Position numbers and translations under genes: made by a program
IMG/VR virus record: IMGVR_UViG_3300031227_000472
Span: 1 to 22,593 of that record
Reading direction: 5' to 3' (one strand)
From: a virus
Length of the DNA stretch: 22,593 bases
Notes under the pieces: model-generated
Database searches by the model: none
What the model saw: the letters and a program-made list of their open reading frames with translations, nothing else
Told to the model about the DNA's origin: nothing
Part shown: in pieces, positions 5,438-22,385 of the stretch
Numbering within the stretch: the first letter of the stretch is position 1
How the letters are laid out: each line of letters opens with the position of its first letter

Positions 5438-6745
5438 ATGCCAGACGAAACCTTTAACTGCGAGTGCATCGAATGTGGTTACAAGATGGAGTCAGAGGAA
5501 CACTGCAAGGATCTGAAATGTCCTGAATGCGGCGGTCAAATGCGACGAGAAGAACGACCTGGTCCCGGTCAGGACAAAATCAATACGGAGGGAAAGTCAA
5601 TGAGCAGAATAGAAATCAGAGGAGTCATAGTCCCGAGCGAATACGATACCGGATGGACACAGGAATATATTGAGAAGGGTATCATCACTCCTGAGAGTTA
5701 CTTCCGCAGGGCTCTGGCAGAAGCAGCCGTGGATAAACCTCTCGATGTCTACATCAATTCTCCTGGTGGGAGTGTGTTCGCGGCCTATGAAATGGTCAAC
5801 GCTCTACGCGAGTGGAGAATGACAAGCAAGCAGCCTATCAATATCTCGCTCGGTGCTATGGTCGCAAGTGCAGCCAGCATGATCACCATATTCATCGGAT
5901 CAGCGGTTAGGGCTCATCGTAATTCAAAGATGATGTTTCATGGTGCAAGCTCATTCATAGACGGTGGACAGGGAGCCATGAAAGACGAAGCCGAGCTGCT
6001 TGGCAAGATCAATGCCGAGATTCAGCAAACACTTATATCGAAGTATAACATGAGTTCGGATGTCATTGGAGAATGGTTTGCCGAGGGCCGTATGGGATGG
6101 CTGACCGCCGATGAGATGGTTAAGGCCGGTATCGCTTCTGAGGTAATTACGGAAGACTCCGAGGAGATCAAGTTTGACTCTGCATCTATAGACGCTATCG
6201 GAGCGAAGGGCCTGGATATTGCGGCTCTTCTGGAAACCAAAGAGGAGGACTCGGATGGAACTAGAACACCCGGCAAAGATGGTGAAGAAGATACTAAGTC
6301 CGAAACCGACAAACCTGATAAAGAAGACACTGGATCGAGTGATGCCGAAGGCAACGAGTCCACAGACGAAGTCAAAGCGGCTCACGACCTCGGAATCACC
6401 GAAGGCCAGACAGCGGCGCAGACTGAATACGCTGATCAACTCGCGGCCATAGCGGAAAAGATGAGCGAGCTACAGGCCAAGCACGACACACTTGATGCTC
6501 TGCAACGGAAGACGCAGGGTGAGCGTGACAGTGCAAGGGCGCAGATCGAAAAGCAAGGCACGTCAATAGCTGATCTCACAGAGAAGCTCGAACGGTTGCT
6601 GACCGGGGGATTAAAATTTTCTCCGTCTATCGCGACCTGGGCCGACGCTCTTAATGCCTGTGATGGTGATTACGACAAGGCGCGGCAACAGTATCCTGAT
6701 ATTTACAAAGCAGGTCGAGAAGAGGCGAGGGCAAACAGGAAATAA
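5438..6745 (+). CDS. ClpP-type prohead protease with N-terminal zinc ribbon and scaffold-like tail
   Basis: A 435-residue three-part protein. Residues 8-32 form a zinc ribbon (CECIECG, then CPECGG). Residues 56-240 are a ClpP/S14-type protease: INSPGGSVFAAYEM (107-119), the serine segment GAMVASAASM with the likely nucleophile Ser144, and MMFHGASS with His168. Residues 250-310 are acidic and low in complexity. Residues 320-395 are a predicted coiled coil rich in Glu, Ala and Gln, and the last part is compact. This matches lambda gpC/Nu3-type genes, where the protease matures the prohead and the C-terminus serves as scaffold. SD is AGAGG at 5423-5427. A stronger SD precedes an in-frame ATG at 5600, so a form without the zinc ribbon is likely. 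Confidence 0.87.
   Translation: MPDETFNCECIECGYKMESEEHCKDLKCPECGGQMRREERPGPGQDKINTEGKSMSRIEIRGVIVPSEYDTGWTQEYIEKGIITPESYFRRALAEAAVDKPLDVYINSPGGSVFAAYEMVNALREWRMTSKQPINISLGAMVASAASMITIFIGSAVRAHRNSKMMFHGASSFIDGGQGAMKDEAELLGKINAEIQQTLISKYNMSSDVIGEWFAEGRMGWLTADEMVKAGIASEVITEDSEEIKFDSASIDAIGAKGLDIAALLETKEEDSDGTRTPGKDGEEDTKSETDKPDKEDTGSSDAEGNESTDEVKAAHDLGITEGQTAAQTEYADQLAAIAEKMSELQAKHDTLDALQRKTQGERDSARAQIEKQGTSIADLTEKLERLLTGGLKFSPSIATWADALNACDGDYDKARQQYPDIYKAGREEARANRK
5587..5602 (+). promoter_or_regulatory. Strong internal SD and in-frame ATG in the protease gene
   Basis: GGAGGG at 5587-5592 lies seven bases before ATG 5600-5602, in the reading frame of the protease gene. Translation from here starts MSRIEIRGV, exactly at the ClpP domain boundary and after the zinc ribbon. 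This SD is better than that of the upstream start at 5438, so two products, or an upstream start used weakly, are plausible. Confidence 0.55.
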
Positions 6746-6793: not shown

Positions 6794-8353
6794 ATGAAAA
6801 AATTTCTGATCAGTTTAATGTCGGCGCTCATGTTCGTTGGTATTACGTACGGAGCATCAACGGTGGAATCGTATTCAACGGTGAAGCTGGTTGAGGAAAT
6901 CAATGAGGCATTGGCTAATCCCGAAGTCGACAGCATAACTTGTCTCGGCGATTTAGGCATCACGGCAAGCAATTTGACCGTGAAGTTACGGGCGGCGGCA
7001 TCAACTGATCTTGGTCGGTTTGCCGTGCGGTCATTGGAAACCGTGGCCAATCGGTCAGACAGTGATTATGTAGAGTGGGCACTTTTGGAAGCGTATGATA
7101 GCGCGACTAACTGGCAGACATTCGCATGGTTGAAAGTAATCAGCTCGGACATAACAACCGCCGATGAAGATTGTACTATTCAATTATGGTATGACATTGC
7201 CGGAACGCCGACCTTGGGCGCGGTATGGGATAGTGGCGGTCTGACTATAAAGGCATTAAAAGTTGAAGGAGCGGCGACTTTTCAAGGCGCTGCGACGATC
7301 AGCGGCAAGACCACTTGTAATGGCGAGTTGGAAGTCAACGGTAGCGATGTGGATATTAACATGACGTTGACTAATAACATAGTTAGGATTGATCAGACTA
7401 ACGCTGCTGGGAACGCAGCTATGCCGCTGATTGCAGTTGCTGATGCGCGTACTGGCGTAACTGCCGATACAGCGGATGAAGCGACATTGGTTATTACGGC
7501 TGCTGGTGCGTATGGCCTGTCAGTTGCCGATGGTATTGTCAACATCGAAGGCGAGATTGATAGCACGGGCGATATCACTATTGATCCTGATGGTGACGAC
7601 GTAATCATTGATGGTACAGTTGACGCCACGGCTTACAAAGCTGATGCCGGTTCTGGCATTGATGCTGAATCGACAGGCGCGTTGGATATAGGTAACACGA
7701 CAGCGACCAGTATTGATTTCGGTAACACCAATGTTACTGCACATACGTTTGTCGCTAATGGTACAGGTGATGCGAAAGTTGTGTTGCCATTGCTTAGTAT
7801 TGGTGATGGCGAGATAAACGACGTGTCGGCGGCAAAACTGGCAGCGGCTTCCGTAGCTACTGCCATAGATATTAACGCTGCGACCAACTTCAATATGGCG
7901 AACTTAGCTGCAGGCACTACTGCCGCTGCGTTTGACGGTTCTGCTGTTACGGCATTAGATGCGGCCAATATATCGGCAGGAACGGTAATGCCAGCGGTGG
8001 ACGGCGGAGCCATTACTGGTCTGAATGTGTACGGTTCGCCTGGTATTGAGGTCACTGCGATTACAGCGGCAAGTCTGTTTAGCACGAACACCATAACCTT
8101 GAAGGATGTGGATGGTAATACCATGACGGGTTACGCTGTTGTCCATGTCTGGCAGGGCGCGGCTGCGTCTGCTATGACATTCCCCGATAGCGTTGCGGCA
8201 GTTACCGTGGCGGCTAATGAGGATTACTGGCGCGTAGTGACAAACGTAGGCACTATGAAGTGGGTAATTGAGGAAGCGTCAATTACTACAAACACAGCGT
8301 ATGTGTCGGTTGGGCCTAATGTGGCTTCGACGAACATCACACTGTTGCCGTAA
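6794..8353 (+). CDS. Fibre-like repetitive protein with Sec signal peptide
   Basis: A 519-residue protein. Residues 1-21 look like a signal peptide: two lysines, a hydrophobic core (FLISLMSALMFVGI) and a small-residue site YGA before Ser22. The remainder is rich in Gly, Ala, Thr and Asp and made of short strand repeats typical of phage fibres: VWDSGGLTIKALKVEG with ATISGKTT near 145-170, many IDxxGDITID-type turns, and two copies of N-x-x-AGT-x-x-A-x-DGxAxTxL near 375-415. No enzyme motif is seen. It sits between the protease/scaffold and the capsid genes, a place often used for head decoration or head-fibre genes. The signal peptide is odd for a cytoplasmically assembled virion. GAAGGGA upstream is the likely SD. 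Confidence 0.72.
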   Translation: MKKFLISLMSALMFVGITYGASTVESYSTVKLVEEINEALANPEVDSITCLGDLGITASNLTVKLRAAASTDLGRFAVRSLETVANRSDSDYVEWALLEAYDSATNWQTFAWLKVISSDITTADEDCTIQLWYDIAGTPTLGAVWDSGGLTIKALKVEGAATFQGAATISGKTTCNGELEVNGSDVDINMTLTNNIVRIDQTNAAGNAAMPLIAVADARTGVTADTADEATLVITAAGAYGLSVADGIVNIEGEIDSTGDITIDPDGDDVIIDGTVDATAYKADAGSGIDAESTGALDIGNTTATSIDFGNTNVTAHTFVANGTGDAKVVLPLLSIGDGEINDVSAAKLAAASVATAIDINAATNFNMANLAAGTTAAAFDGSAVTALDAANISAGTVMPAVDGGAITGLNVYGSPGIEVTAITAASLFSTNTITLKDVDGNTMTGYAVVHVWQGAAASAMTFPDSVAAVTVAANEDYWRVVTNVGTMKWVIEEASITTNTAYVSVGPNVASTNITLLP

Positions 8354-8365
8354 ATATAAACCAAC

Positions 8366-8391
8366 GGGGGCCAGGGCTAATCCCGGTCCCC
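8366..8391 (+). other. GC-rich hairpin in the leader of the next gene
   Basis: GGGGGCC (8366-8372) pairs with GGTCCCC (8385-8391), using one G-T wobble. After a bulged A, GGG pairs with CCC around a five-base loop. No T tract follows, so it is not a simple terminator. It ends five bases before the GGAG of gene 8405 and could protect or pause the message. Confidence 0.55.
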
Positions 8392-8404
8392 TCATGGAGA
8401 AAAT

Positions 8405-8767
8405 ATGAAACTATTGATTGTGATACTTGCAATGATTTACGCCGGTGTGTGTCATGCCGCTGATAGTTTCAGCACCTTTACCCTCACGACACACACACAG
8501 ACTTCGACGGTACAACAGACCGAGTATTCAGATCCTTTCACGGGTGAGATTGACGAAATATCCGTTTACTCTTCGGCTGGTGTTACGGGTTCAGTTGCCA
8601 TAGCAGCAATTGATTCGTACTCCGGCAACGCGCTTGTCTTGGCGACGAACGTGGCGGTAAGCGAGTATATGGTGTGGCGGCCAAGGGTTATGCCAGTGAG
8701 TATTGACGGCGCAACTACGTTGGTTATTACCAATTCAGCCACAGAAGCACGGTTCAATTGTCACTAG
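8405..8767 (+). CDS. Small secreted-type beta-rich protein, interrupted by amber codon
   Basis: The open frame codes for 120 residues. The N-terminus MKLLIVILAMIYAGVCHA is a clear signal peptide with a probable cut after Ala18. The mature part is beta-rich (Thr, Ser, Val) and resembles small phage decoration or fibre modules; no family is recognised. The frame stops at TAG 8765-8767, but the same frame stays open for 25 more codons to TGA 8843-8845, and the added segment ends in a convincing strand, VFRVYIKIKD. The longer end falls on the SD of the capsid gene, as expected in this tightly packed operon, whereas the short form leaves an 88-base gap. A nonsense change, a suppressed stop or readthrough are all possible. 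SD is GGAG at 8396-8399. Confidence 0.65.
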   Translation: MKLLIVILAMIYAGVCHAADSFSTFTLTTHTQTSTVQQTEYSDPFTGEIDEISVYSSAGVTGSVAIAAIDSYSGNALVLATNVAVSEYMVWRPRVMPVSIDGATTLVITNSATEARFNCH

Positions 8768-8845
8768 GAACGCATCAGAGCAATCCTGACTGGTGCGAAT
8801 ATTACGAGTTCAGTATTCAGGGTTTACATTAAGATCAAAGATTGA
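8768..8845 (+). other. In-frame continuation of gene 8405 after the amber stop
   Basis: Twenty-five sense codons follow TAG in the same frame and end at TGA 8843-8845. The predicted segment begins ERIRAILTGANI and ends VFRVYIKIKD, with alternating hydrophobic residues like a terminal beta strand. The TGA overlaps the GAGGAG SD of the capsid gene. Confidence 0.55.
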
Positions 8846-8855
8846 GGAGAATATC

Positions 8856-9797
8856 ATGCCTGGAATGGAAGCATATATGACGGAAGATGGCCGGAGAGAA
8901 GATCTCGAAGCTATCGAGGTAAATCCGATACTGAGTTACATCGGAACACGGTTCTATCCTATTCTGACGACAACTCAGAAAACAGGATCAGTATATTATA
9001 CCACGCTCACCGCTGATGCCGCATCGCAGGATGCACTTGCGCGTGGCACGGCTTTGACGCCGGTGTATCTGACTGAGAGCGTACTAACATATTCGGCAGC
9101 GAGTGTTGAGAAGCGGTATGCAATCGGACGCGATGAAGTCAAACAGATGAGTGGAATTGAGAAGGCCGACAGGCTTGGCGGCATGGCTTCAAAGCGCAGT
9201 GTGTTGAGAACGCAGGAAACGGCACTGGCATTACAGTTACAGACGGTAGGCTCGCATCAGACGGCGGCTCATGTGGCTGGTGCGTTTTTGTCAGAAGCAA
9301 ACATAGCACGCGAAGCAATCCGCAGGTATCCCGGGAAGATGGCCTTTGCATGTGGATTCACCGTATTCAACGCCATTATGAGGTTTACAGAAGTGCTTAA
9401 CCAGTTCAGTCTGGCAGCTCTCATGCTCGGCGGCGGCGAGGCGAAGGATGTGATTGCTGGCTCACCGAACGCATTGAAGATGATCCTTGCAGGGCTCTTG
9501 TCGGTTGACGAGATTCTTGTCGGTGACGACGACCATTGGGGCGTTGATGTCGGTTTTTCCGGTATCGGCTGTAATGGCGTGTTTGTGAAGCTGCCCGGGA
9601 CGGATGAGTTCAGTCACAAGATGGACCCTGTGCTTGGCAAGCTTGTTCAATATCTGCCGGATGGCGTTCAGCCTTACATAGTCGAATCGTTCTATCACAA
9701 AGAACTGAAATCGAATATGTACGACGCAGAGACATGGTATTCCATTGAGGAAATGAATGCCGAAGCAGCGTATGTCCTGACCGACATCATCGCGTAA
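8856..9797 (+). CDS. Major capsid protein (probable, HK97-like fold)
   Basis: A 313-residue protein from ATG 8856, which has a textbook SD (GAGGAG at 8844-8849, six-base spacing). A GTG at 8793 would lengthen it but has no SD and overlaps the tail end of gene 8405. The product lacks cysteine-rich or membrane features. Its length and its location after the protease/scaffold and before head-tail joining genes fit a major capsid protein. The middle holds a substrate-like block (YAIGRDEVKQMSG) and the C-terminus a segment VQPYIVESFYHKELKSN and then MYDAETWYSIEEMNAEAAYV, the type of ending seen in HK97-fold capsids. The call rests mainly on position, size and lack of a better candidate. A strong hairpin follows it. 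Confidence 0.75.
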   Translation: MPGMEAYMTEDGRREDLEAIEVNPILSYIGTRFYPILTTTQKTGSVYYTTLTADAASQDALARGTALTPVYLTESVLTYSAASVEKRYAIGRDEVKQMSGIEKADRLGGMASKRSVLRTQETALALQLQTVGSHQTAAHVAGAFLSEANIAREAIRRYPGKMAFACGFTVFNAIMRFTEVLNQFSLAALMLGGGEAKDVIAGSPNALKMILAGLLSVDEILVGDDDHWGVDVGFSGIGCNGVFVKLPGTDEFSHKMDPVLGKLVQYLPDGVQPYIVESFYHKELKSNMYDAETWYSIEEMNAEAAYVLTDIIA

Positions 9798-9805
9798 GGA
9801 AGTGA

Positions 9806-9853
9806 AGAATCCTATGCCGCGGAGAGGTCGGTTCCTTTCCGCGGCATAATTCT
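9806..9853 (+). terminator. Long hairpin after the capsid gene
   Basis: TATGCCGCGGAGAGG (9813-9827) pairs with CCTTTCCGCGGCATA (9834-9848), a 15-bp stem with one G-T wobble and a six-base loop. AGAAT (9806-9810) and ATTCT (9849-9853) extend it past a two-base bulge. The T tract is poor, so it may be a partial terminator or 3'-end stabiliser that raises capsid message over downstream genes. Confidence 0.6.
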
Positions 9854-9866
9854 ATACAAGGACATA

Positions 9867-10190
9867 ATGGCGATAGACATTAAAACACTCGCGCAAGCGG
9901 AACTCGCAAAGATCATTCTGGCGCATCCGACTACGGTAGTAACTGTCGTGAACGGCGAGAACTCTGCTCAGTGCATCAGGGATATGACGATGGGGGAGGC
10001 CGACCTCGGAGAGATGGGCGAGGCCGGAGAGACAACGGGGAAGGTCTACGGCAACGCAGACACGCTCGGAACGATTACGAACGGTCAGACGATTACAGTC
10101 GGAGACTCAGCGGCTAACGTCATGAATCACGACACGGATCCGGCAGGCGCGATAACAACAATCGACTACACACTACAGAAACCAAAATGA
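9867..10190 (+). CDS. Head-tail joining protein, gpFII-like (putative)
   Basis: A 107-residue protein with no cysteine pair or membrane segment. It has a short N-terminal helix (LAQAELAKIILAHP), then a strand-rich body: VTVVNGENSAQCIRDM, a GKVYGNADTLG strand, an ITNGQTITVGDSAANV hairpin, and a final strand TTIDYTLQKPK. This order of small strands, with a G-x-x-I-x-x-G turn and a closing beta strand, is like lambda FII-type joining proteins that link the connector to the tail. Its position immediately after the capsid gene agrees. AAGGA at 9858-9862 is the SD. The stop overlaps the next start (ATGA). Confidence 0.5.
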   Translation: MAIDIKTLAQAELAKIILAHPTTVVTVVNGENSAQCIRDMTMGEADLGEMGEAGETTGKVYGNADTLGTITNGQTITVGDSAANVMNHDTDPAGAITTIDYTLQKPK

Positions 10191-10858
10191 GCGCACCTTC
10201 AGGAAGTATTAAGATGATCGGCAACTGGAAGAAAGACATGGATGTCTCTCTCGGGTGGGCTTTGAACACGACGTACGATGTAGCAGGTAGGAGCATTGCA
10301 GAGGCGACGAAACACGCAATCATTTTAATGGCGAAGTCTTTAGCAAGCGCCAGAACCGGACTGACAAAGAAATCAAAGAAGAACCGGAAGATCGAGCGCG
10401 ACGAGAAGAAGCGTCCGTATATTGCCAAGCTCGAGAAGGACGGAGGCACTAAGCGCTGGTATCTCCCGAACAAGAAGCATAAGCCTGACGAATACGCACG
10501 TCTGCTCTCGGAACTCAGACCGATAGGCAACCAAGGGCTGGCAAGGCACTCGTGGTTATGGGGGCTCAAGGGTTTGAAAGTGAGCGCTAACACTCGCAAG
10601 CCGATGCCTGGTGTGTCTACCATGCGCCGACTCGTGACGAAGACGGTGGGGGGCTACATCCTAACGAACCGACTGAGCTATATCCGTAAGGCCCTCGCGC
10701 CGGGCTGGAAGCAGACTGTCCAGCGCCTTGCGGCCAACAAGATTATGAAGCAGGCGCAAATGAAGATGAAGAGCAAGTGGGAGCGAGAGTTGCGAAGATT
10801 CGGTACACGCAAGGCCGCAGCCAGACAACCTGACCTCGCTAAATACTTTATGAGGTAA
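10187..10858 (+). CDS. Neck/minor tail protein (putative, gp10 or gpZ-like)
   Basis: A 223-residue, strongly basic protein. The N-terminus (GNWKKDMDVSLGWALNTT, then a helix AEATKHAIILMAKSLASAR) resembles the opening helix of HK97 gp10 and lambda gpZ-type neck or tail-completion proteins, which begin with a helix followed by a basic linker. The middle is rich in Lys and Arg (KKSKKNRKIERDEKKRP). The C-terminal third contains several helices with positive charge. It lies between the joining protein and the tail terminator, exactly where such a protein is expected. ATGA overlap with the previous gene. The assignment is by position and composition; sequence similarity was not tested. Confidence 0.5.
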   Translation: MSAPSGSIKMIGNWKKDMDVSLGWALNTTYDVAGRSIAEATKHAIILMAKSLASARTGLTKKSKKNRKIERDEKKRPYIAKLEKDGGTKRWYLPNKKHKPDEYARLLSELRPIGNQGLARHSWLWGLKGLKVSANTRKPMPGVSTMRRLVTKTVGGYILTNRLSYIRKALAPGWKQTVQRLAANKIMKQAQMKMKSKWERELRRFGTRKAAARQPDLAKYFMR

Positions 10859-10860
10859 TC

Positions 10861-11307
10861 ATGAGTTGGGCCGTAGAAGAATATTCAGAGGATGCGGTTC
10901 TGGCATACCTGAACAGCAAGCTACAGACAGGCTTGCTTAAGCCGTATGTCGCATGGACGAATGAGGATCGCAAGTATCCGTGCTTTGTTGTTCACTGCGG
11001 AGAAACAGACAATGTGACTGACGAGTTCACAGGGCATCGTCAGGCGGCTATTGATGTCGCGGTAATGTCACAGGCTGTTGCTTCCGGTGGGGTATCGGCA
11101 AGGAACCGCAACAGGGTTTTTCGTGATGCCGTTATTACAGCTCTAGCACAGACGAAACTCTATAACGACATCAACGCTTTAGCGCCTACTGGTGTCGTAT
11201 TCTCAAAGGCGCGAATAGGCAGGATTACGAGAGCCGTGGAAACCGACCAGCGCGTTTTTGTTTCTGAAATAACAATCATCTCAACAGTAAGCCCAAAGGA
11301 AGTATAA
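10861..11307 (+). CDS. Tail terminator / tail-completion protein (putative)
   Basis: A 148-residue protein. The pattern is that of gpU-like tail terminators: an N-terminal helix (EDAVLAYLNSKLQ), a strand (YPCFVVHCGETDNV), a second strand (RQAAIDVAVMSQA), an RNRVFRDAVITALAQ helix, and C-terminal strands (ETDQRVFVSEITIIST). Such proteins cap the growing tail tube and link it to the head. It follows the neck gene after a two-base gap and its stop overlaps the next start (TAATG). GAGGT lies just upstream as SD. No cysteine motifs or catalytic signatures. The fold agrees well, but no comparison could be run. Confidence 0.58.
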   Translation: MSWAVEEYSEDAVLAYLNSKLQTGLLKPYVAWTNEDRKYPCFVVHCGETDNVTDEFTGHRQAAIDVAVMSQAVASGGVSARNRNRVFRDAVITALAQTKLYNDINALAPTGVVFSKARIGRITRAVETDQRVFVSEITIISTVSPKEV

Positions 11308-11714
11308 TGAAAAAACTTCTCTTAATCCTTATGCTCTGCGTTCCCTGTATAGTGTCCGGCCTTGAATCAGCGTCGATCACCATGACGAACCTGAGGGGCG
11401 AAGCGCAGACTGCCGCCGATTCAGCCACGTTCTATCGTGGAGATCAGATTCAGTTCACTAACTGTATCGCATACTCAGGAACAAGCACATCAAGCGCGAT
11501 ACAGGATTTAACGGGCCTGACGCTTACGGTGAGCCACGGTGACAGCATAGGAACTACAACGGTTGGACCGGGACAGTCAACAATGCAACGTCTGGCCTAT
11601 GGAGCGCTTCTACCGCGCTGGCAACGAATGAGGCCGACAAGACCTACAGCACATATATCCAAGTGCGGATCACGGACGGGACAAACTCATTTACATATCC
11701 ACGCAAGACACTGA
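11307..11714 (+). CDS. Secreted-type beta protein with probable frame change
   Basis: The open frame codes for 135 residues. Residues 1-18 (MKKLLLILMLCVPCIVSG) look like a signal peptide. The segment up to about residue 85 is a beta-rich domain (FYRGDQIQFTNCIAYSG, LTGLTLTVSHGDS) like small fibre or baseplate modules. After that the sequence turns into Arg/His/Pro-rich text (LPRWQRMRPTRPTAHISK) that does not look like the rest. The -1 frame is open from 11543 to TGA 11732-11734 and gives a natural continuation with strands such as STYIQVRITDGTNSF. That end overlaps the next start as ATGA, as in the neighbouring genes. The interruption is therefore a shift of frame, not a real C-terminus. TAATG start overlap; SD AAGGAAG. 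Confidence 0.62.
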   Translation: MKKLLLILMLCVPCIVSGLESASITMTNLRGEAQTAADSATFYRGDQIQFTNCIAYSGTSTSSAIQDLTGLTLTVSHGDSIGTTTVGPGQSTMQRLAYGALLPRWQRMRPTRPTAHISKCGSRTGQTHLHIHARH

Positions 11715-11734
11715 AAGTGCAACCGAAGCTATGA
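11543..11734 (+). other. Displaced -1 frame continuation of gene 11307
   Basis: This frame opens after TGA 11540-11542. It encodes NGWTGTVNNATSGLWSAS and later STYIQVRITDGTNSF, ending KTLKVQPKL at TGA 11732-11734. The stop forms ATGA with the start at 11731. The switch from the upstream frame lies roughly between 11545 and 11565. I see no canonical X XXY YYZ slippery heptamer there. Confidence 0.6.
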
Positions 11735-12408
11735 GCAACTGGGGAACAATCGCGCTCGGATGCAGGATAGGAGAGAGGGCCGATCCTCTATTCGTGCGCT
11801 CCTGGCAAAACATGATCGCAAGCGGATTGCGAAAGGGTGACGGGATGATCGATCCGGCAGTTGAGATGCCGCATCACTTTGCAGCTAACTATCTGGCCAA
11901 GCTGTTTTTGAAGTCAGACGCGAACACGCTTTGCATGGTGGACAGCGACATGATCTTCTCGGCTGATACTTTATCGAAGCTCAGGGACAACCCCGAAGGG
12001 GCAGGCTACGGTACGCTATCTCCGCTGTGTACGACACGCCGGAATCCCTACGTGCCAGTGGTTCTAACCACGAAGGGGAAGAGCGCATGGACGGCTAGGG
12101 TTGACCTCGTTGACGGTTCGCTGGTACAGGTTGACGCAACGTGTGTCGCGTTCGCCCTGATCAGACGGCAAGTATTCCTCGACATAGATGAGAAGTTCAA
12201 GGTCGGAGGCTGGTTCTTCGATTGGGGCCCGCAGGGCTACGGCGAGGATACGACATTCAGTGACAGGGCCAGGGCGTGCGGATATAAGATCGGGATAGAT
12301 ACCGGAATCCAGATCGGACATAGGGGCTCAATGACATTCGGATGGGATGTAGAGAAGAAACAAACAGTATTCAGCGACTACAATCAAGTGAAACTGTTTA
12401 CAACATAA
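11731..12408 (+). CDS. GT-A type glycosyltransferase
   Basis: A 225-residue protein with a GT-A glycosyltransferase layout. CMVDSDMIFS (68-77) holds the DxD motif (Asp71-Ser-Asp73) that binds the metal and nucleotide-sugar. GEDTTFSDRARACGYKIGID (171-190) carries the acidic pair after Gly171, and GHRG (196-199) provides the late histidine usual in this superfamily. It should transfer a sugar from a nucleotide-sugar donor; the acceptor is unknown. It has no membrane segment, so it probably acts in the cytoplasm. Its place between tail-completion and tail-tube genes suggests it glycosylates a virion or secreted structural protein, which is inference. ATGA overlap with the preceding displaced frame. 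Confidence 0.8.
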   Translation: MSNWGTIALGCRIGERADPLFVRSWQNMIASGLRKGDGMIDPAVEMPHHFAANYLAKLFLKSDANTLCMVDSDMIFSADTLSKLRDNPEGAGYGTLSPLCTTRRNPYVPVVLTTKGKSAWTARVDLVDGSLVQVDATCVAFALIRRQVFLDIDEKFKVGGWFFDWGPQGYGEDTTFSDRARACGYKIGIDTGIQIGHRGSMTFGWDVEKKQTVFSDYNQVKLFTT

Positions 12409-12421
12409 TAAGGAGGATATC

Positions 12422-12787
12422 ATGGCCGCAGTAGTACAAGGCACAACTCTCATGATCACGTTCGGAAGTTATGCATACACCGGGTTCATTCCGGAGACGA
12501 TGACCGTCAGCTACCCGAACGGAAACGTGAAGGTAGTGCGCGGAGTTAGTGGCGAAACTCTGACTAAGATATATATGGACCCGAGTCAGAGCGTCAAGGG
12601 CGATTTTATTATCCTCGGCGCAACCGGCACGATCATCCCTCCGATAGAGGGCGCGGCTGTTACGCTCACGCCTCCAACTGGAACATCGACGATTTACGGG
12701 TGTATATCCGCAGAGGTATCGTTCTCAGCCGACGAAACAAAGCTGACACTTGATCTGATCAAAGAAACCAGCATGACATATGCCTAA
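12422..12787 (+). CDS. Small tail-tube candidate
   Basis: A 121-residue beta-rich protein with no cysteine motif and no membrane segment. Strand-like stretches alternate with Pro/Gly turns (TTLMITFGSYAYTGF, NVKVVRGVSGETLTK, AEVSFSADETKLTLDLI). It has a very strong SD (AAGGAGGATATC before ATG). It lies immediately before the chaperone candidate and tape measure, where the major tail protein is found in siphoviruses. The length is short for most tail-tube proteins but within range for the smallest ones. Alternatively it is a minor tail component. Confidence 0.45.
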   Translation: MAAVVQGTTLMITFGSYAYTGFIPETMTVSYPNGNVKVVRGVSGETLTKIYMDPSQSVKGDFIILGATGTIIPPIEGAAVTLTPPTGTSTIYGCISAEVSFSADETKLTLDLIKETSMTYA

Positions 12788-12796
12788 GGAGGAACA

Positions 12797-13387
12797 ATGC
12801 AGGGTGCGTTCATTTCTGCGCTTACCTATCAACCTCCTGTTGTGCTAGGCCGTCAACTGCTACACTTCTCACCGTGGCACGGCCTCATGCTGGAGGCCGC
12901 TGGCTCTCCCTACCTGGTTGAAGGCAAGACTACCGTTGCAGATATGATTTACGGTGTATGGGTGTGCTCCACGAGTTTCTCAGAAGGGTATGCCAAGGCC
13001 GGTGATGGCATCGGCGCTTCTAAATGGGGTAAGAAGGAAAAGCGTTCTGATCGCACTGAGGCCAAAGCCCTGTTTGATGAGTATATTATCAAATCCTTTG
13101 CTTGTCCTGATTATTGGAGTACGGGCGGCGGCGCACAACTCAAAGCCCCCTACTGGTGGCATCTGGCTCTCTTCGGCCAGAATGTTCTCGGATTATCCGA
13201 AGCGAAGGCATGGGATCATCCGATTATGAAACTTGTGTGCTACCGCGCGTGTGATGCGGAATCCAACGGATGGGATAAGCTAAAGACAGAGAACGAGATG
13301 GAAGGTTCGAGAGTGTTGAGGGCTGATATGGAGAAGGAAGAGGCCGACAAGAACAATAATGCAGCACGCAAAACGAGAATGAAATAA
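12797..13387 (+). CDS. Tail assembly chaperone candidate
   Basis: A 196-residue protein with a strong SD (AAGGAGG at 12786-12792). It is helix-rich with Trp and aromatic residues (SPWHGLMLEAAGSPYL, APYWWHLALFGQ, MKLVCYRACDAESNGWD). The C-terminal 40 residues are highly charged (EMEGSRVLRADMEKEEADK) and probably disordered. Its position before the tape measure matches the tail assembly chaperone of siphoviruses, which wraps the tape measure. The usual -1 shifted extension was not found: no long overlapping frame and no slippery site stand out near the end. Recognition is by position and composition only. Confidence 0.42.
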   Translation: MQGAFISALTYQPPVVLGRQLLHFSPWHGLMLEAAGSPYLVEGKTTVADMIYGVWVCSTSFSEGYAKAGDGIGASKWGKKEKRSDRTEAKALFDEYIIKSFACPDYWSTGGGAQLKAPYWWHLALFGQNVLGLSEAKAWDHPIMKLVCYRACDAESNGWDKLKTENEMEGSRVLRADMEKEEADKNNNAARKTRMK

Positions 13388-14625
13388 TGGCCGTAACTCT
13401 TAAAGCTATAGGCAAACTGGACGGCAAGCAGTTCCATGGTGAAGTCAAGAAGATGGGGAACAATGTCGATCGGTTTGGCAAGAATCAGCTTGGCGCATTG
13501 AAGGGCATGATCGCCGGGGCGTTCTCTGTTGGGGTGATTGTTAACTTTAGCCGGAAGTTATTGAAGACCGCTGATGACTTACAGACCGCAGCCAACATCT
13601 TTTCACTCTCGATGGAAACGATGCTCGCATGGCAGAGCGTAATGGCAGAGAGCGGGATTACGGCGGAGCGGTTCAACAAGATTTTCGGTAGGATAGCCAG
13701 CGCGCAGGGTGACGTTCGGCGTGGCTTGGCAACATACGTTGACGCTATAAACGATATGAACATCGCGCAGGAAGAGTTTGTCGGCATCGGCGTAGACGAG
13801 GCATTGTTGTTGATGGCCAAAAGATATGAACAGGCCGGTGACAAGGGGATGTTTGTCGAGGGTGTTACGAAGTTGTTAGGCACTCGCGTGATTGGATTGG
13901 TCGAGGTTTTCCAGAGATTGAACCGGGACGGAATGGAACCGTACATCGCAAACGCGAAGACCGCAGCCGAGGGAATGACGGAGCTGGCGGCGGCAAGCGA
14001 CGCACTTGAAAAGGCCGGGAACAAGGTTACTCTATGGGCTGCTTCGGTGGTTCCACCGCTGATGAAGATCGGTGAAGTTCTAGGCAAGCTTGTTGATCTT
14101 GCGAGCGCGCTGGGGCCTACTGGAATCATTGGTTCAATTATGGGCGTTGGGTTCAAAGAAACATCAAGACAATTATTCAGTGGTGAAATATTCAAGTCTA
14201 TATTCCGAAAAAAACCAGAAGCAGGAGATACAACGGCTGGACCGCGCAAACAACCGGACATAGCCAAAGAGATCGCGAAGGTCAAAAAGGATTCCGGCAA
14301 GGACGATGAAGCTACCGAACGTAAGATACTGGCTATAGCAAAGCAGCGCGAAAAGATTGACGAGCAGCGCGAAAAGGTAATCTCTCAACACAGCGAACGC
14401 GAAAAAGACATTATGGGCGGCAAAGGAATCGCGACACCGGAACAGGCGCGTATAGATTCCATGCAAAGTATCGGCGGCATCATAGGTGGTGGCGGCAAGG
14501 CCGACCAGGCAAGTCGCTTTGCCGAACGCGCTGAGAATATCCGCAAGGAAATAAATGCCAACCTCGAAAAAACCAATAAGAAACTAGACGACCTCTATAT
14601 GGCAACACAAGCATTGGGTGAATAA
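13387..14625 (+). CDS. Tape measure protein (short)
   Basis: A 412-residue protein. The N-terminus (LKAIGKLDGKQFHGEVKKMG, then FGKNQLGALKGMIAGAFS) is like tape measure openings, with a helical segment and a hydrophobic part FSVGVIVNF. Hydrophobic stretches appear again at SVVPPLMKIGEVLGKLVDLA. The C-terminal third is a charged coiled coil (KILAIAKQREKIDEQREKVI) and it ends NLEKTNKKLDDLYMATQ, a typical last helix. Tape measures set tail length; by the usual rule of thumb of 0.15 nm per residue this one would give a tail of about 60 nm, which is short. Start overlaps the previous stop, and the stop overlaps the next start (TAATG). Confidence 0.75.
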   Translation: MAVTLKAIGKLDGKQFHGEVKKMGNNVDRFGKNQLGALKGMIAGAFSVGVIVNFSRKLLKTADDLQTAANIFSLSMETMLAWQSVMAESGITAERFNKIFGRIASAQGDVRRGLATYVDAINDMNIAQEEFVGIGVDEALLLMAKRYEQAGDKGMFVEGVTKLLGTRVIGLVEVFQRLNRDGMEPYIANAKTAAEGMTELAAASDALEKAGNKVTLWAASVVPPLMKIGEVLGKLVDLASALGPTGIIGSIMGVGFKETSRQLFSGEIFKSIFRKKPEAGDTTAGPRKQPDIAKEIAKVKKDSGKDDEATERKILAIAKQREKIDEQREKVISQHSEREKDIMGGKGIATPEQARIDSMQSIGGIIGGGGKADQASRFAERAENIRKEINANLEKTNKKLDDLYMATQALGE

Positions 14626-15404
14626 TGGGAATAGACAATCCAACATATTTTGAAGTCAAGGGTGAATCAGACATCATTGAACTGAATCCTCGGCGGGAAT
14701 GGGATCTGAATAATGGGGTGCAGACGATTCGCAGGTTTGTGGGAACAGCCGATGTTGTGGAGCAGAAGTTTAATGAGTTCGCCGCGTCCGATTCCCCCGG
14801 TATTGATACAATGGAGGAATCATCCAATGGCAAGGACGCGCAACTCGTATGCCGCATTTTCGAGGATAGCGGCAGTTCTGCCGGGGGAAACACCGAAGCC
14901 CTCAACTCGGTATGGGAACTGATTGCCACGCCTTTATATAAGCCGATTGAAACATTCACAGGCTTCAATTCGATTTCGGCAACGCGCAAGCGTGAGCTGG
15001 AAAAGCTGGCAAGGGATCTTGATATCAGCATTGCTGATCCTTCCACAGATCCAGAAAAACGGCTTTATGGTTTTTACGCAAACCAAACACTGGACTTTCT
15101 GCTGACAGAGTTCAGGCTCAGGAAAACAATTATCCTTTCCAGCCGGTCAGCAATTACCGCGAGCTACACGAGCATGAACAAGGTGGTTTCGCTTGCGACG
15201 ATTGGTCCTCCGACTGCATTACTCGGTACACTTACCAGCCTCCCGAAACAGGACGGTTCAAGCGGACAATGGGAATGGTTGAAGCTGGCCCCGCAACTCA
15301 GACAAGTTACCAAGCGTAAGTTTCAACTCGGGTATGAATGGTGGGGGGCCGAACTGTGGGCCAAATATCCCTACGGCGGCACATGGGAACCGGAATGGAC
15401 ATAA
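14625..15404 (+). CDS. Distal tail structural protein, unknown family
   Basis: A 259-residue protein that I do not recognise by name. It is beta- and charge-rich at the start (ELNPRREWDLNNGVQTIRRF), has a helical middle (SISATRKRELEKLARDLDI) and closes with a Trp/Tyr-rich segment (FQLGYEWWGAELWAKYPYG). Proteins in this slot, right after the tape measure, form the distal tail or baseplate hub. No peptidase or lysozyme motif was seen. TAATG overlap with the tape measure stop. The following gene begins after one base. Function from position only. Confidence 0.5.
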   Translation: MGIDNPTYFEVKGESDIIELNPRREWDLNNGVQTIRRFVGTADVVEQKFNEFAASDSPGIDTMEESSNGKDAQLVCRIFEDSGSSAGGNTEALNSVWELIATPLYKPIETFTGFNSISATRKRELEKLARDLDISIADPSTDPEKRLYGFYANQTLDFLLTEFRLRKTIILSSRSAITASYTSMNKVVSLATIGPPTALLGTLTSLPKQDGSSGQWEWLKLAPQLRQVTKRKFQLGYEWWGAELWAKYPYGGTWEPEWT

Positions 15405-15405
15405 T

Positions 15406-15927
15406 ATGCCTTTAGCAAATAAAAGATACGTGGACAATGCGATAGCTCAAAGCAGAAGTCCTGAGCATCCACGGCGGATGAAGCAATCTGGTAGTACGTT
15501 TCCGTGGACTGCAATAGGATTCGGGTATCAGATCAATCCTAACAGCGACGATCCTGACGAGGTACGGATATATGCCGGAGCCGTCAACGGCGTGGCGATA
15601 GCGCAGACGGATGTGACGTGTCCGGATGGTGCGGGTACGGTTTATGCCAGAGTTGCAAAGGAGGCGGGAGGCGCGGGAACGATACAGGTTGCGGCCTCTC
15701 TGCCGGCAGAGGATGCTACATACTATTATTATGACCTCTATACATTCACGGTGACAAGCGGATCAGTTGCGTTCACGAAGGCGAACAGGGCGTTCAACAT
15801 CGAGACAGGGCGGCAACTGCCGTCGAACGCAAGCGTAACACAGTATCATGTATTGCAGATTTCGGCTGATGTAGGCGGGGCAGACGACCCTACGAAGTGG
15901 ACAATAGCTACGGTGAAGTGGATTTAA
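15406..15927 (+). CDS. Tail or baseplate structural protein
   Basis: A 173-residue protein from ATG 15406. A longer frame opens at 15334 but overlaps the previous gene by 71 bases and adds a composition-odd N-terminus, so I chose the shorter start; its SD is weak. It begins with a basic helix (LANKRYVDNAIAQSRSPEHP) and then gives a beta-rich body (FPWTAIGFGYQINPN, ATYYYYDLYTFTVTSGSVAF, a closing strand WTIATVKWI). The body looks like a small strand-rich tail or fibre-base module. No known family is recognised. The next gene begins two bases downstream. Confidence 0.55.
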   Translation: MPLANKRYVDNAIAQSRSPEHPRRMKQSGSTFPWTAIGFGYQINPNSDDPDEVRIYAGAVNGVAIAQTDVTCPDGAGTVYARVAKEAGGAGTIQVAASLPAEDATYYYYDLYTFTVTSGSVAFTKANRAFNIETGRQLPSNASVTQYHVLQISADVGGADDPTKWTIATVKWI

Positions 15928-15928
15928 T

Positions 15929-16861
15929 ATGGCAACATTCACAACATTAAGCGCGGGTGGGAACACACAGGATAAGACCTGGGGCAATGAGATCATCCTG
16001 TCTTACAGCGAACACAGGCAGGTGCTTGGCGACTCCGCCGTGTCTGCAGTTTCCGGTGGTGACGACGCGCAGGACAAGACGCTCTGGCTGGCCATGCAAG
16101 TATGGCTGGAAGCGAACTGCACAGGCTTTGTCAATCATACCGATGAACCTAATCTTTACGCAGATGTGGCTGCATGGCGCGCGGTAGCTGGGTTGAACGC
16201 CAGCGGGTTTTCTCGATATAAGGACGAAGCGTTACTCGGATACGGGAATATGCAGAATGGTGACGACCGGGCAGTGGTAAATTTTCAGGAGTTGCAGAAA
16301 GGGTTTGACGCTCTGCGGTGGACACGCGATACAATAACCTGGACAGCAAAGGGCGAGGATAGCGGCTGGAATGGTGGTTCTACTGCATTCGCTTCTTGGG
16401 CCGATGCAAAGACCGATGCCGAGGGTGACTGGCAAGCTCTTGGCCCGACTGCTTATCCAAGCGCGGAATCAAATGGATTCTTTAACATTGGCCCGTCTTA
16501 TTTTGCTAATCTAATCAGAAGCTATGCCTACGCGCAAGCGTCTGGATTGTCCACAGTTGTGCAACACTCAGCCGAATTATGGATACGAGGGAAAAAGCGG
16601 GTTCCGGCGGCTGGCGATAATTATACATTCAGCGCACACGGTGACGATATTTCCGAAACGCTTGAAGAACAATATACCCTTGCAGAATCAGGTGCGAGCA
16701 GTCGTGAGCAGAAAGTCGGAGATGTGAGTTCTAGGCCAAGTTGGTGCGATACTCCCGACGCGGTTGACACGGTAAAATATCTTGGCTACGAACTAGATCA
16801 AAGCGTTGGATTGTGGCTGTTGAAATGGAACGGTGCAAACGGATTTTCATACACCCTATAA
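15929..16861 (+). CDS. Tail structural protein, unknown family
   Basis: A 310-residue protein. It is rich in Asp, Asn, Trp and Gly and has helix-strand alternation with many Trp residues (TLWLAMQVWLEANCTGF, DALRWTRDTITWTAKGEDSGWNGG). The end reads YELDQSVGLWLLKWNGANGF. No signal peptide, no membrane segment and no enzymatic motif. Adjacent to distal tail genes, two bases after the previous stop, so a baseplate or receptor-binding complex component is plausible. I do not recognise the family. Confidence 0.5.
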   Translation: MATFTTLSAGGNTQDKTWGNEIILSYSEHRQVLGDSAVSAVSGGDDAQDKTLWLAMQVWLEANCTGFVNHTDEPNLYADVAAWRAVAGLNASGFSRYKDEALLGYGNMQNGDDRAVVNFQELQKGFDALRWTRDTITWTAKGEDSGWNGGSTAFASWADAKTDAEGDWQALGPTAYPSAESNGFFNIGPSYFANLIRSYAYAQASGLSTVVQHSAELWIRGKKRVPAAGDNYTFSAHGDDISETLEEQYTLAESGASSREQKVGDVSSRPSWCDTPDAVDTVKYLGYELDQSVGLWLLKWNGANGFSYTL

Positions 16862-16873
16862 CGAGATAAGACT

Positions 16874-17542
16874 ATGAATATATACTGGAGTTTACAAGAA
16901 CAGATACTTGTTCCGAGTCTGAACAGCAACGTGAAGATCCTGCGATATGATTTTGTTGTCCGTGATCTTCTGCCTGTGGTTCTGCGAGTCTGTAATCAGC
17001 AATCCAACGCGACGGTTCCGTATGTGGTTACATCCATTGCCGCCAGTAGTTCAATTAAGTTCGGTGCTAAATCGTTGGCTGGCTTCACCACGGAAGAAGA
17101 TTTCCTGTTCAATCAGGCGACCTGGGTAAAAGCAGGGTCCGGCGAAACGACCACCTACACCGCGAACATTCCGCTGAATACCGCCGAGCTGATCGCCAAA
17201 CTTGGCACAAGCGATTTCCTGGACTGCAAGGCAGAGTTCACGATCCAGACCGTAGGGAACGAGAACGAGCTGAGTACGCAGGTGACGTTCCGAATCTATC
17301 CCGATGTAATCAAGGGAACCGAGGGCGTAGCGACAAGCACTTATCCGGTAATCGCGCAGTACACGGATGATGAGAGTGTGCCAGCCGTGCGAATCGTTGA
17401 CGCAACCGGCACAGCCGTATGGATCGGCAAGCAAGGATCGGGATACACTTTTTGTCTTGAGACCGGATTATGGTATCCAGATATAATTACAATAGTGGAC
17501 GGTGAGCCTATTAAATCACTTGGCGCGGGGGTAAGTTTATAA
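16874..17542 (+). CDS. Baseplate/upper-fibre protein (putative)
   Basis: A 222-residue beta-rich protein. The N-terminal half (KILRYDFVVRDLLPVVLRV, SAVTSI-like strands, GSGETTTYTANIPLNTAEL) has the pattern of an immunoglobulin-like or BppU-type fold: strands separated by TT turns, and then a second strand set (EFTIQTVGNENELSTQVTFR). The end is a Val/Ile-rich stretch. No signal peptide. It immediately precedes the long fibre (stop and start overlap, TAATG), as the fibre-anchoring baseplate protein does in many siphoviruses. The BppU comparison is a visual impression. Confidence 0.45.
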   Translation: MNIYWSLQEQILVPSLNSNVKILRYDFVVRDLLPVVLRVCNQQSNATVPYVVTSIAASSSIKFGAKSLAGFTTEEDFLFNQATWVKAGSGETTTYTANIPLNTAELIAKLGTSDFLDCKAEFTIQTVGNENELSTQVTFRIYPDVIKGTEGVATSTYPVIAQYTDDESVPAVRIVDATGTAVWIGKQGSGYTFCLETGLWYPDIITIVDGEPIKSLGAGVSL

Positions 17543-20500
17543 TGAAATTCAAACTATTGACCATCCTGATCCTGATGAGTTCTATATTGACGGCCAGGGG
17601 TCTGATAATCAGTAACGCGGTTCCTACGAATATCACAACTACAAGCGCGTATTTCCGCGTTTCGATTATCAGCACGAACGGGACAGGCACGAATCCGACT
17701 ATGACAGTGTTCTACGGCAAGGTGGATTATACCACCAACGCCGATTCATGGGCGAGTTCGAACGTGTACGGGACTTCGACGGTGGCGACTATCTCCACGC
17801 AGATAACGGCGTTGACGGCTATGAGCAAATACTATTATAGCTGGCGCGGTGTCGAAGGAACAGCAACTGCATGGACGGTGACATCGACAAACTTCTGGAC
17901 AAAGCCGAGCGCGCCGACCAGTACGCCTGCTGTCGTGAGCTATTCCGTGACCACGGATACGAACGGGGTACTGAAAGCGCCTACTAATTTCTTCGGGACG
18001 AACATAGACCTGATTACCGCTGCCGGTGGATTGACGAATGAACCGCTATGGGAGGCGGCAAGCGGTACTGTGGTTTATACGGATAATGATAGTGTGACAA
18101 ACTATACCTTGCGAACGCTGTGGTATCTTACGAATGGCATTTTTGAAGGACGTATAGGAACGAATGAGTCGGCAATAACAGCACAGGGTAATACAAACCT
18201 GATCTTTGAAGGGCGTATCGGAACCAACGAGGGTGATGTGCTTACCCTTCAAGGCAGAGTTGGCACGAATGATGGCCTAATAGTTACCATAGACGGACGG
18301 GTGGGAACGAATGAGTCGGCAATAACAGCACAGGGTAATACAAACCTGATCTTTGAAGGGCGTATCGGAACCAACGAGGGTGATGTGCTTACCCTTCAAG
18401 GCAGAGTTGGCACGAATGATGGCCTAATAGTTACCATAGACGGACGGGTGGGAACGAATGAATCTGGCATAGCGGCCAATTTGACAAACTCCCTTCTACT
18501 TGCAGGCGGGAACAAGATGGAAGCTGATATTGACGGCGGGATGTTTGGTTATACCAACGCCATAAAAGTTATTGCTGGCGATCTTACCGCCACGAATCAG
18601 GCTTATGTTCCGAAAGGTCTGACAGACGGTAGCGCGGTTAACCGTGAGCAACTTTATGATTTACTTGCCGCTGAAAGCGCATTGACTCTTTATGGGTCTA
18701 CGGGGCTGAACAGCTTCGGCTCAAGCGGGAGTTGGATTACTACGCCTGATGCGAACTCCACAGTTATTACAAGCGAATTTTCGGAGGTAAATGAAACCAA
18801 TTATATTGGAACCTACTGGACAACAAATGCGACAGATGTGATTCGCGCATCGATGTATAACGGCGTTTTTCATGCCGATAGATTTGATGGCAACGGAATT
18901 TGTTATGGTTATTTTGATTTGGTATATACCGATGATGGCGGAGCAACGACGAATCTAATAGCCACAAGTTCAATCAGCGGGACTATTATTGATCATACTG
19001 AATATAGGGTTAGTGCTCCAAATCTCAACAACATCGAAAATGGAACCAATTTGTTCCTCGGCGTTGATGTTTATATTGTAAAGGTTTCTGGAAGCCAAGC
19101 CACTGACATTAGACTTTATCTTGGTGCTGCTCATCCGTCGCGTTTAGAAACGCCCGGCTTTGGTGAATTGGATATTGGCACACGCGGGGCAACTGGTGTG
19201 GTTGAAAATATCAGTATCACGCAATCGGTGTACGACACAACTGCCAGGGCTTTCACTCTTGACACCGAACACCGGCTCTCGCAGTACAACAACGACACGC
19301 CGTTTTTGGAAGCATCGGAGTGGAGAGACAATGCACTGTCAGATAGCAACGCCGTCAATCTAACAAACAACGCGATATGGGATGGTGCTGTTACTGACCT
19401 CAATACCCTCGAGGGCCAATACGAAGCGACAAGTAATCTGGTTGACGGGGTAATAATCAGAACGAACGCATGGAACGCTGCCGCAACTGGCGCGTTTGCT
19501 GGCGCGGCCTCAACTGGACTTGTTACGAGCGCGGCTGGTGATGCCGGGAACTTTCTCAAAGCTGACGGCACATGGGCTACGCTTCCTGGAAGCGCAGAAT
19601 CATGGTCGTCATTCGATGCCACACAGCTTGTGGATATGGCACGGCAAACCGTAACAAACGCAGACAGCGTCCATGTGACCAATGAGTTTGTGGCATGGAA
19701 TGCGCCGACTAATACCGCCTTGAAGATGCAAGCCTTAATTAACATGGGTGTCAACATCCGAACAAGGGCAGGTACCTCTTTCAACATTGGTTCTGAAGGT
19801 GGAGCTTTTGGTGGATGGATAAGCATTCAGACAAATGGAGTTAGTAGCAGATCAAATGACTTCATCGGGTTTTCGCCTGTGCCTATGGGAGAGGCAGTCA
19901 CAAGTCCTGCATCGTTCAACAATTCAATGATCCTTGTGCAAAAGGGTGTCGGTGGCTTTGCCGCGCCAAGCGTGAAGCTCGGAATCGGAGGCTGGCCTAC
20001 GGCTCATTCCCTCGACATATACGGCAACGCTCGGATTGACGGGCCTCTTGACGTTGGCGTAATAAATGTGACAAACGACCTGAACTATGGCGGAAACAGC
20101 GCAACGGGTCTGCTCAACGTAACGGCATCAGGCGCAGGCACGTTCGGGGTTTTGGTAGCAACGAATCTTCCATATCTGGAAGCATACGCATCAAGTGGTG
20201 AGATTTATTCAAATTTAACCATTGCTACTATGCAATTTCATACAGTTGTAACACAATTCGGCGGGACATGGGCGAATAATACGACATGGACTCCCGGCAG
20301 GATAGGGCGTTGTAGAGCAGACGCAAACGCACGACTGAAGTTTGGTTCTACGGTGACTGGTACTTTGGAAATGTCTATTTATAGGAATCATGCGCCTTTA
20401 ATTACGGGTGATGATTACAGTAGCACCGAAAATCCACGCGTTTATCTGGGCAAGACGTTTTGGAACGCCTTTGCAACAAACATTTATGAAATAATTCTAA

Positions 20501-20577
20501 CCGCCGCAATGGGCGAAACTGGGACAAATAGAATCACTCAAGCTGACACTGCTATTACTTTTTCTATGCAACCATGA
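17542..20577 (+). CDS. Long tail fibre with signal-like N-terminus, FN3-like domain and coiled-coil repeats
   Basis: A 1011-residue protein. Residues 1-20 (MKFKLLTILILMSSILTARG) look like a signal peptide. Residues about 20-115 resemble a fibronectin type III fold (SAYFRVSII, VFYGKVDYTTN, SKYYYSWRGVEG). Residues 206-303 are two identical 49-residue units of heptad-like repeats (GRxGTNxx), probably a trimeric coiled coil. Later come Gly/Ser/Thr-rich strand regions, NFLKADGTWATLPG near 671, and a C-terminal domain from about 900 (LKFGSTVTGTLEMSIYRN, NIYEIILTAAMGETGTN, TAITFSMQP) that resembles TNF/C1q-like jellyrolls used as receptor-binding tips. It is the last tail gene. Role: adsorption. The signal peptide is unexpected for a virion fibre. 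Confidence 0.78.
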   Translation: MKFKLLTILILMSSILTARGLIISNAVPTNITTTSAYFRVSIISTNGTGTNPTMTVFYGKVDYTTNADSWASSNVYGTSTVATISTQITALTAMSKYYYSWRGVEGTATAWTVTSTNFWTKPSAPTSTPAVVSYSVTTDTNGVLKAPTNFFGTNIDLITAAGGLTNEPLWEAASGTVVYTDNDSVTNYTLRTLWYLTNGIFEGRIGTNESAITAQGNTNLIFEGRIGTNEGDVLTLQGRVGTNDGLIVTIDGRVGTNESAITAQGNTNLIFEGRIGTNEGDVLTLQGRVGTNDGLIVTIDGRVGTNESGIAANLTNSLLLAGGNKMEADIDGGMFGYTNAIKVIAGDLTATNQAYVPKGLTDGSAVNREQLYDLLAAESALTLYGSTGLNSFGSSGSWITTPDANSTVITSEFSEVNETNYIGTYWTTNATDVIRASMYNGVFHADRFDGNGICYGYFDLVYTDDGGATTNLIATSSISGTIIDHTEYRVSAPNLNNIENGTNLFLGVDVYIVKVSGSQATDIRLYLGAAHPSRLETPGFGELDIGTRGATGVVENISITQSVYDTTARAFTLDTEHRLSQYNNDTPFLEASEWRDNALSDSNAVNLTNNAIWDGAVTDLNTLEGQYEATSNLVDGVIIRTNAWNAAATGAFAGAASTGLVTSAAGDAGNFLKADGTWATLPGSAESWSSFDATQLVDMARQTVTNADSVHVTNEFVAWNAPTNTALKMQALINMGVNIRTRAGTSFNIGSEGGAFGGWISIQTNGVSSRSNDFIGFSPVPMGEAVTSPASFNNSMILVQKGVGGFAAPSVKLGIGGWPTAHSLDIYGNARIDGPLDVGVINVTNDLNYGGNSATGLLNVTASGAGTFGVLVATNLPYLEAYASSGEIYSNLTIATMQFHTVVTQFGGTWANNTTWTPGRIGRCRADANARLKFGSTVTGTLEMSIYRNHAPLITGDDYSSTENPRVYLGKTFWNAFATNIYEIILTAAMGETGTNRITQADTAITFSMQP
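18157..18461 (+). repeat. Perfect 147-bp tandem duplication inside the fibre gene
   Basis: Positions 18157-18303 and 18304-18450 are identical, and 11 bases of a third copy (18451-18461, GGAACGAATGA) follow. The unit is 147 bases, 49 codons, seven heptads, so the coiled-coil register is kept. Each unit holds GTNE/GTND blocks at spacings 21, 14 and 14 residues. Confidence 0.95.
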
Positions 20578-22155: not shown

Positions 22156-22172
22156 CCTAAAACGTCCGAGAA

Positions 22173-22224: not shown

Positions 22225-22239
22225 CTGTGCGTTGCCATG

Positions 22240-22284: not shown

Positions 22285-22350
22285 ACTCCCCTCCACAAAT
22301 ACCCATTTTTGACCCCATAAAACTATTTTCATTTATTTTCACTTTAGGGG

Positions 22351-22378: not shown

Positions 22379-22385
22379 CTAAAAC

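Follow-up and report, generated by a model that had tools for sequence, protein, structure and literature searches.

Predicted Sec signal peptides on head-side and fibre-like proteins of a tailed phage with relatives in Verrucomicrobiota

The window analysed here, a 22,593-base IMG/VR record, is a fragment of a tailed-phage genome in which four genes, at 6794, 8405, 11307 and 17542, begin with segments that are very probably genuine Sec/signal-peptidase-I signal peptides. Our best reading of the sequence is that 6794, 8405 and perhaps 11307 encode surface proteins of the head and 17542 a tail fibre, and that the phage belongs to a diverse group of Verrucomicrobiota tailed phages that appear to carry signals on separate fibres and on some head-side proteins. 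Tailed phages are thought to assemble wholly within the cytoplasm, and we know of no tailed phage that adds Sec-exported fibres. The explanation that we favour, although tentatively, is that these virion-surface proteins would be exported and would join the particle outside the cytoplasm, at or after lysis. We are somewhat less confident of the wider proposal that a lineage of phages finishes its virions outside the cytoplasm in this manner, with receptor-binding fibres and head-surface proteins passing through Sec, maturing in the periplasm and joining as the cell lyses or later; in sister phages the fibre would remain unexported, in a single chain with the tail domain.

In the proposed scheme the cytoplasm would remain the place where the head and the tail core are built. 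Fibre and decoration proteins would instead cross the membrane through Sec, would be trimmed and would fold in the periplasm, and would attach to the particle once lysis opens the envelope, or shortly afterwards. That the proteins are exported, cleaved and bound to the particle is our inference. The features of the window are as follows.

39 (start), ParB-like gene
512 (start), TerL gene
3813..5420, + strand, lambda-type portal protein, the marker that links the phage to its Verrucomicrobiota-associated relatives
5438..6745, + strand, ClpP-type prohead protease
6794..8353, + strand, SP1, a 519-aa fibre-like protein in the slot between prohead protease and major capsid protein (MCP), with a beta/repeat mature part
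6794-6853, predicted signal peptide of SP1, 20 aa
8405..8767, + strand, SP2, a beta-rich protein of 120 aa that occupies the decoration-protein slot directly 5' of the MCP gene
8405-8458, predicted signal peptide of SP2, 18 aa, VCHA↓AD
8856..9797, + strand, MCP, start MPGMEAYM, without signal peptide
11307..11714, + strand, SP3, a 135-aa ORF, predicted signal peptide at about 11307-11360
11731-12408, PHROG 1574 glycosyltransferase-like gene
13387-14625, tape measure protein, 412 aa
16874..17542, + strand, 222-aa gene directly 5' of SP4, in the slot of the relatives' gene B
17542..20577, + strand, SP4, a 1011-aa fibre-like protein with shaft repeats, start on the stop codon of 16874
17542-17601, predicted signal peptide of SP4
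gene 21349, one-TM membrane protein
22543..22593, + strand, truncated ORF with a hydrophobic start, a possible fifth case

Signal peptides in the window

The N-termini of the four proteins read MKKFLISLMSALMFVGITYG↓A (6794), MKLLIVILAMIYAGVCHA↓AD (8405), MKKLLLILMLCVPCIVSG↓LES (11307) and MKFKLLTILILMSSILTARG↓LI (17542), with the predicted cleavage site of the last at TARG↓L or LTA↓R. All four have the n-region, hydrophobic core and -3/-1 residues of a Sec/signal-peptidase-I signal, and the signals are of the cleavable type, without retention signals. By inspection, the lipobox [LVI][ASTVI][GAS]C is matched neither at the cysteine in 8405 (AGVC) nor at those in 11307 (CVPC). A Shine-Dalgarno-like sequence lies just 5' of 6794, 8405 and 11307; 17542 instead has its start tied to the stop codon of 16874.

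We evaluated these N-termini with a rule-based scorer that looks for a positive n-region, an uncharged h-region with a core of 9-16 residues and small residues at -3 and -1. Among the 28 window genes only the four and the one-TM protein 21349 pass. Whole-protein shuffles pass at a rate of 1.5%, and the observed score was reached by 4, 1, 0 and 1 of 5000 shuffles for 6794, 8405, 11307 and 17542, respectively. In a calibration on structural-region CDS from eight annotated phages, 2 of 197 pass, one a Fusobacterium phage lipoprotein and the other a 68-aa membrane protein, versus 4 of 27 in the window (Fisher p = 0.002). Shuffles and annotated phages thus place the background of the scorer at ∼1-2%. 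None of the 30 CDS of verrucophage P8625 pass, which agrees with its authors' finding that SignalP gave no signal peptide in any protein (PMC4642752). A preliminary description of this DNA had proposed that four genes with Sec-type starts are interleaved with capsid, neck and tail genes. The signals are present at these starts, with agreement among the scorer, shuffle and annotated-phage tests, and the gene order bears out the interleaving.

Several further observations concern individual genes of the window. Gene 22543 supplies only MRIALLYTFLSLWTALT before the contig ends, which is too short for a signal call; the ∼460 bases just 5' of it (22081-22543) hold no clear gene and contain, just before gene 22543, the inverted repeat ACTGCCTCATG ... 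CATGAGGCAGT. Gene 11307 has an apparent frameshift near 11550, which may be a sequencing error or a real indel. From there the other frame reads on as NYNGWTGTVNNATSGLWSA...KTLKVQPKL to a stop at 11732-11734 that overlaps the ATG of 11731. The tape measure protein, with only 412 aa, would suggest a short tail if the phage is siphovirus-like. The gene at 15334-15927 has an overlapping start; its likely true start is MPLANKRYVDNAIAQ, which lacks a signal and resembles the fibre-shaft opening found right after the signals in relatives.

The slots of two of the signal-bearing genes match those of known virion proteins. SP4 lies 3' of the tail-tip genes and has a long repetitive shaft, as expected of a tail fibre; its match to the PHROG 1219 tail needle is weak (4.6e-4, no single stretch passing alone), and it gave no Pfam match above cut-off and no phage tblastn match. 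SP2, when compared with the gene orders of L005, L007 and L008, occupies the slot between protease and MCP with a mature length of 102 aa versus ∼110 aa for the gpD type, and it matches nothing in Pfam or PHROG, decoration-protein profiles included. AlphaFold pLDDT values of 41 for 8405 and 37 for 16874 are too low for fold comparison.

No direct relatives were found by megablast of the window against phages, and neither IMG/VR scans with the MCP, TerL, 17542 and 8405 nor a search of genome contigs with the SP1 domain gave a match. The searches gave a single homologue of SP1, L002, which is 47-56% identical across the central domain. The L002 protein has a hydrophobic AxA-type segment, but after a 54-aa N-terminal extension. 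L002 also carries a PHROG 1574 glycosyltransferase-like gene (1214-1858), as the window does at 11731-12408, and in both phages with the SP1 domain, which are otherwise unrelated, this gene is found within the packaging and structural genes or close to them. Conservation of the N-termini in relatives is shown at the lineage level, by the relatives' own families and by a lineage-wide excess, and not for the four window proteins themselves, which together have L002 as their one homologue.

Relatives in Verrucomicrobiota and their signal-bearing families

The best relatives of the portal, TerL and MCP are found in genomes of the phylum Verrucomicrobiota. A portal search of the phylum of the Kiritimatiellae MAG L157, which we take to be Verrucomicrobiota in GTDB, matched 15 of 388 genomes (best E = 2e-47), and a profile built from the portals detected related portals in 36 of the 162 genomes of one Verrucomicrobiota order, that of one of the hits. 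The closest relative, L239, has a portal 33% identical to that of the window (6e-82) and an MCP 30% identical (E = 5e-28), which together with a weak match to PHROG 1005 identifies 8856 as the MCP. These genomes are mostly fragmented assemblies, and their binning suggests Verrucomicrobiota as the host.

For the recurrence count we considered ORFs of at least 120 aa located within 14 kb behind the portal, and took as signal-bearing those that pass the scorer and have at most one further hydrophobic segment. Control loci came from Pseudomonadota and Bacillota, where the portal profile and the pipeline were kept unchanged. Signal-bearing ORFs amount to 33 of 353 in the Verrucomicrobiota-order loci versus 5 of 338 in the controls (p = 3e-6), or by locus 16 of 36 versus 5 of 33 (p = 0.01). 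A few of the 33 are false or doubtful, among them L186 10818, L234 7360, L255 1037 and L257 6569, which are long open frames or else encode capsid or tape-measure proteins. The scorer also misses some, such as L240 9905, which has a Glu in the c-region, and L188 10859. At least two of the control matches, L312 and L318, have signals that look real. The trait occurs with two types of portal and so seems to go with the host group, not with a single phage lineage. It is absent from the related phages L190, L195, L231, L235 and P8625, and ClpP-type loci of other phyla show few clear head-module signal cases.

Three observations come from loci elsewhere. L165, a phage in a Bacteroidota MAG, encodes an F5/8C-like beta protein of 188 aa with a signal (5559-6125), located two genes 3' of the MCP, and given this case the trait may extend beyond Verrucomicrobiota. 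The IMG/VR phage L042 has a lipoprotein-type gene in the interval between protease and MCP (1644-2267), adjoining a zinc-ribbon membrane protein. In the Marinobacterium prophage L148 a fused protease-capsid ORF of 722 aa (9809-11977) has the signal-like opening MKKRLMTLAIVGALAAPLPGIMASA, probably a mis-set start.

The signal carriers of the relatives are tail-fibre-like proteins, tail-distal accessory proteins and small beta proteins adjoining the MCP. Fibre-like carriers with the usual shaft motifs are L187 15103, L188 9853, L255 10259 and L258 11769, and signal-bearing proteins of L187, L255 and L193 match tail PHROGs. Small beta proteins with a signal adjoin the MCP in L189 (7702), L191 (7658) and L259 (3625). 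Within the structural family PHROG 5707, L259 3625 is alike over the mature part and adds 18 residues, such that the profile begins approximately at the mature N-terminus, whereas the member L334 has no signal. L258 6271 likewise matches PHROG 22694 across its mature part and adds a signal, in the same 18-19 aa range, while its homologue in the head-neck region of Microcystis phage Mae-JY04 has none. The added segment is likewise absent from the profiles and from the homologues L334 and L261. The tail-distal family carries a signal in L256 and L240 and lacks it in L238, L247 and L250. Since the same families occur elsewhere without it, the predicted signal is an addition to virion-type families. 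In some families it is retained over families of only 27-42% identity: all four members of the A7 family (the L187 18228 family, ∼27% identity) have it, as do both versions of a head protein common to L189 and L191 (42% identical).

Gene B, the fibre and the alternatives to export

In the relatives a tail gene of 160-240 aa, here called gene B, lies directly 5' of the fibre gene. Eight loci (L188, L191, L239, L240, L255, L256, L258 and L260) have B immediately followed by a fibre gene with a signal, whose start in many cases overlaps the stop of B, and four IMG/VR contigs found by B alone repeat the pattern (L339, which is almost identical to L256; L340; and L341 and L342, which closely resemble each other). 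Window genes 16874 and SP4 have the same arrangement, with the start of SP4 on the stop of 16874; homology of 16874 to the gene B profile is not detectable (E = 0.21). By eye gene B resembles a baseplate-upper protein, a name that we dropped as PHROG gave no support for the separate genes and 16874 does not match the B profile. Four phages, L231, L234, L235 and L238, join the B domain to a fibre-like region in a single chain that lacks a signal, and signal-bearing ORFs number 0 of 17 behind one-chain forms versus 17 of 30 behind split forms. L235 and L238 have a lipoprotein-like sequence further 3' of the chain that looks like a lysis gene. A fibre that these sister phages make in a single chain with a tail domain is most simply a part of the virion. 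Where the fibre is a separate chain it has a predicted Sec signal, and in L239 no other large proteins are candidates for receptor binding; we therefore favour export followed by later attachment.

The strongest competitor, to which we give a minor though real share of belief, accepts the signals and holds that the proteins are secreted or periplasmic non-virion products acting at the host surface or on lysis debris, for example free receptor-binding fibres that block receptors and so exclude superinfecting phages or prevent progeny from sticking to debris. Exported exclusion proteins encoded near tail genes are indeed known (Cor and Llp), the signals here are of the cleavable type with no retention signals, and L239 and L260 encode several signal-bearing proteins consecutively. 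On the other hand, the tail modules of L239, L258 and L188 have no large fibre candidates other than those with signals, so that a decoy role would leave these phages with no evident receptor-binding protein. In L239 the large genes behind B all bear signals, and as there are no other large candidates there they are the obvious candidates for receptor binding. The one-chain sister forms also weigh against free secreted products, as does the fact that the head-side members belong to families adjoining the MCP.

It is improbable, in our judgment, that the hydrophobic N-terminus is instead a docking or membrane-active segment kept on a virion protein. This possibility draws on L189 and L260, where a fibre fused to B has a signal-like hydrophobic segment inside the longer chain with no Shine-Dalgarno sequence for a second start, and on L002 with its segment behind the 54-aa extension. 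The segments elsewhere, however, have the canonical layout of n-, h- and c-region, including the -3/-1 sites, and occur on unrelated head and tail families. Moreover, among L191, L340 and L341 identity is 32-58% in the signal and 72-83% over the first 29 residues of the mature part (APTANEDFV...), the reverse of what a docking peptide would show and as expected of a signal that is cleaved; docking is thus unlikely, and the retained virion anchor that the preliminary description had offered as one possibility is disfavoured. Of its two other possibilities, products acting at the host surface and a virion completed outside the cytoplasm, the one-chain sister forms favour the latter.

The same fusions (L189 13085-15355, in reversed orientation, and L260 13902-15248, neither with a Shine-Dalgarno sequence before the internal ATG) would suit a membrane-tethered tail, in which the fibre passes through the inner membrane and domain B and the tail dock on the cytoplasmic side. 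Such anchoring through a fibre-like protein has a proposed precedent in T6SSiv (PMC12210884). We regard this as quite improbable, as the one-chain order of B, hydrophobic segment and fibre is confined to two loci, most cases are separate cleavable-type signals and the window has no such fusion. Export and later attachment, the reading we prefer, needs a further assumption for the fibres fused behind B in L189 and L260. Chance, in the form of mis-set start codons or meaningless hydrophobic starts, is scarcely credible: a simple scorer has a 1-2% background, but the signals are more frequent than in shuffled proteins, in annotated phages and in the control phyla, and they are conserved within families.

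Recurrent export signals on fibres and head-surface proteins, matched by signal-free homologues in sister phages, pose a directly testable question, namely whether some tailed phages complete their particles outside the cytoplasm or release fibres as free proteins that act at surfaces. Both outcomes would bear on receptor binding and exclusion in phages of the poorly known Verrucomicrobiota. Annotators are also warned that such genes should not be taken for host secreted proteins.

Comparison with known systems

Our search of openly licensed papers found no description of signal peptides on tail fibres. Signal peptides are reported for two Bacteroides phages, with 2 in phiBrb01 and 1 in phiBrb02 (PMC5723332). 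In T6SSiv the fibre-like protein through which inner-membrane anchoring has been proposed is Aasi_0556 (PMC12210884), a fibre-slot protein with a membrane function such as the fusions of L189 and L260 might have; unlike that system, the window has no sheath that we could find, and its signals are of the cleavable type.

Verrucophage P8625 (NC_029047) is a tailed phage of Verrucomicrobiota that encodes a portal, a ClpP-type protease and tail fibres, like the window, but differs in having no signal peptide in any protein. The lambda-type head module of Lily, JD-Fnp3 and vB_EalM-137 (gpW, portal B, ClpP-type protease, decoration gene and MCP E) has the same gene order as that of the window, with related portal and protease. 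Whereas the Lily-type module has one cytoplasmic decoration protein before the MCP, the window has two signal-bearing proteins, of 519 and 120 aa, at this position. Phage-encoded exported exclusion proteins are known in Cor of phi80 and N15 and in Llp of T5, all encoded near tail genes. These are small exclusion proteins or lipoproteins, whereas those of the window are long fibre-like and head-slot proteins that have no lipobox and occur several to a phage.
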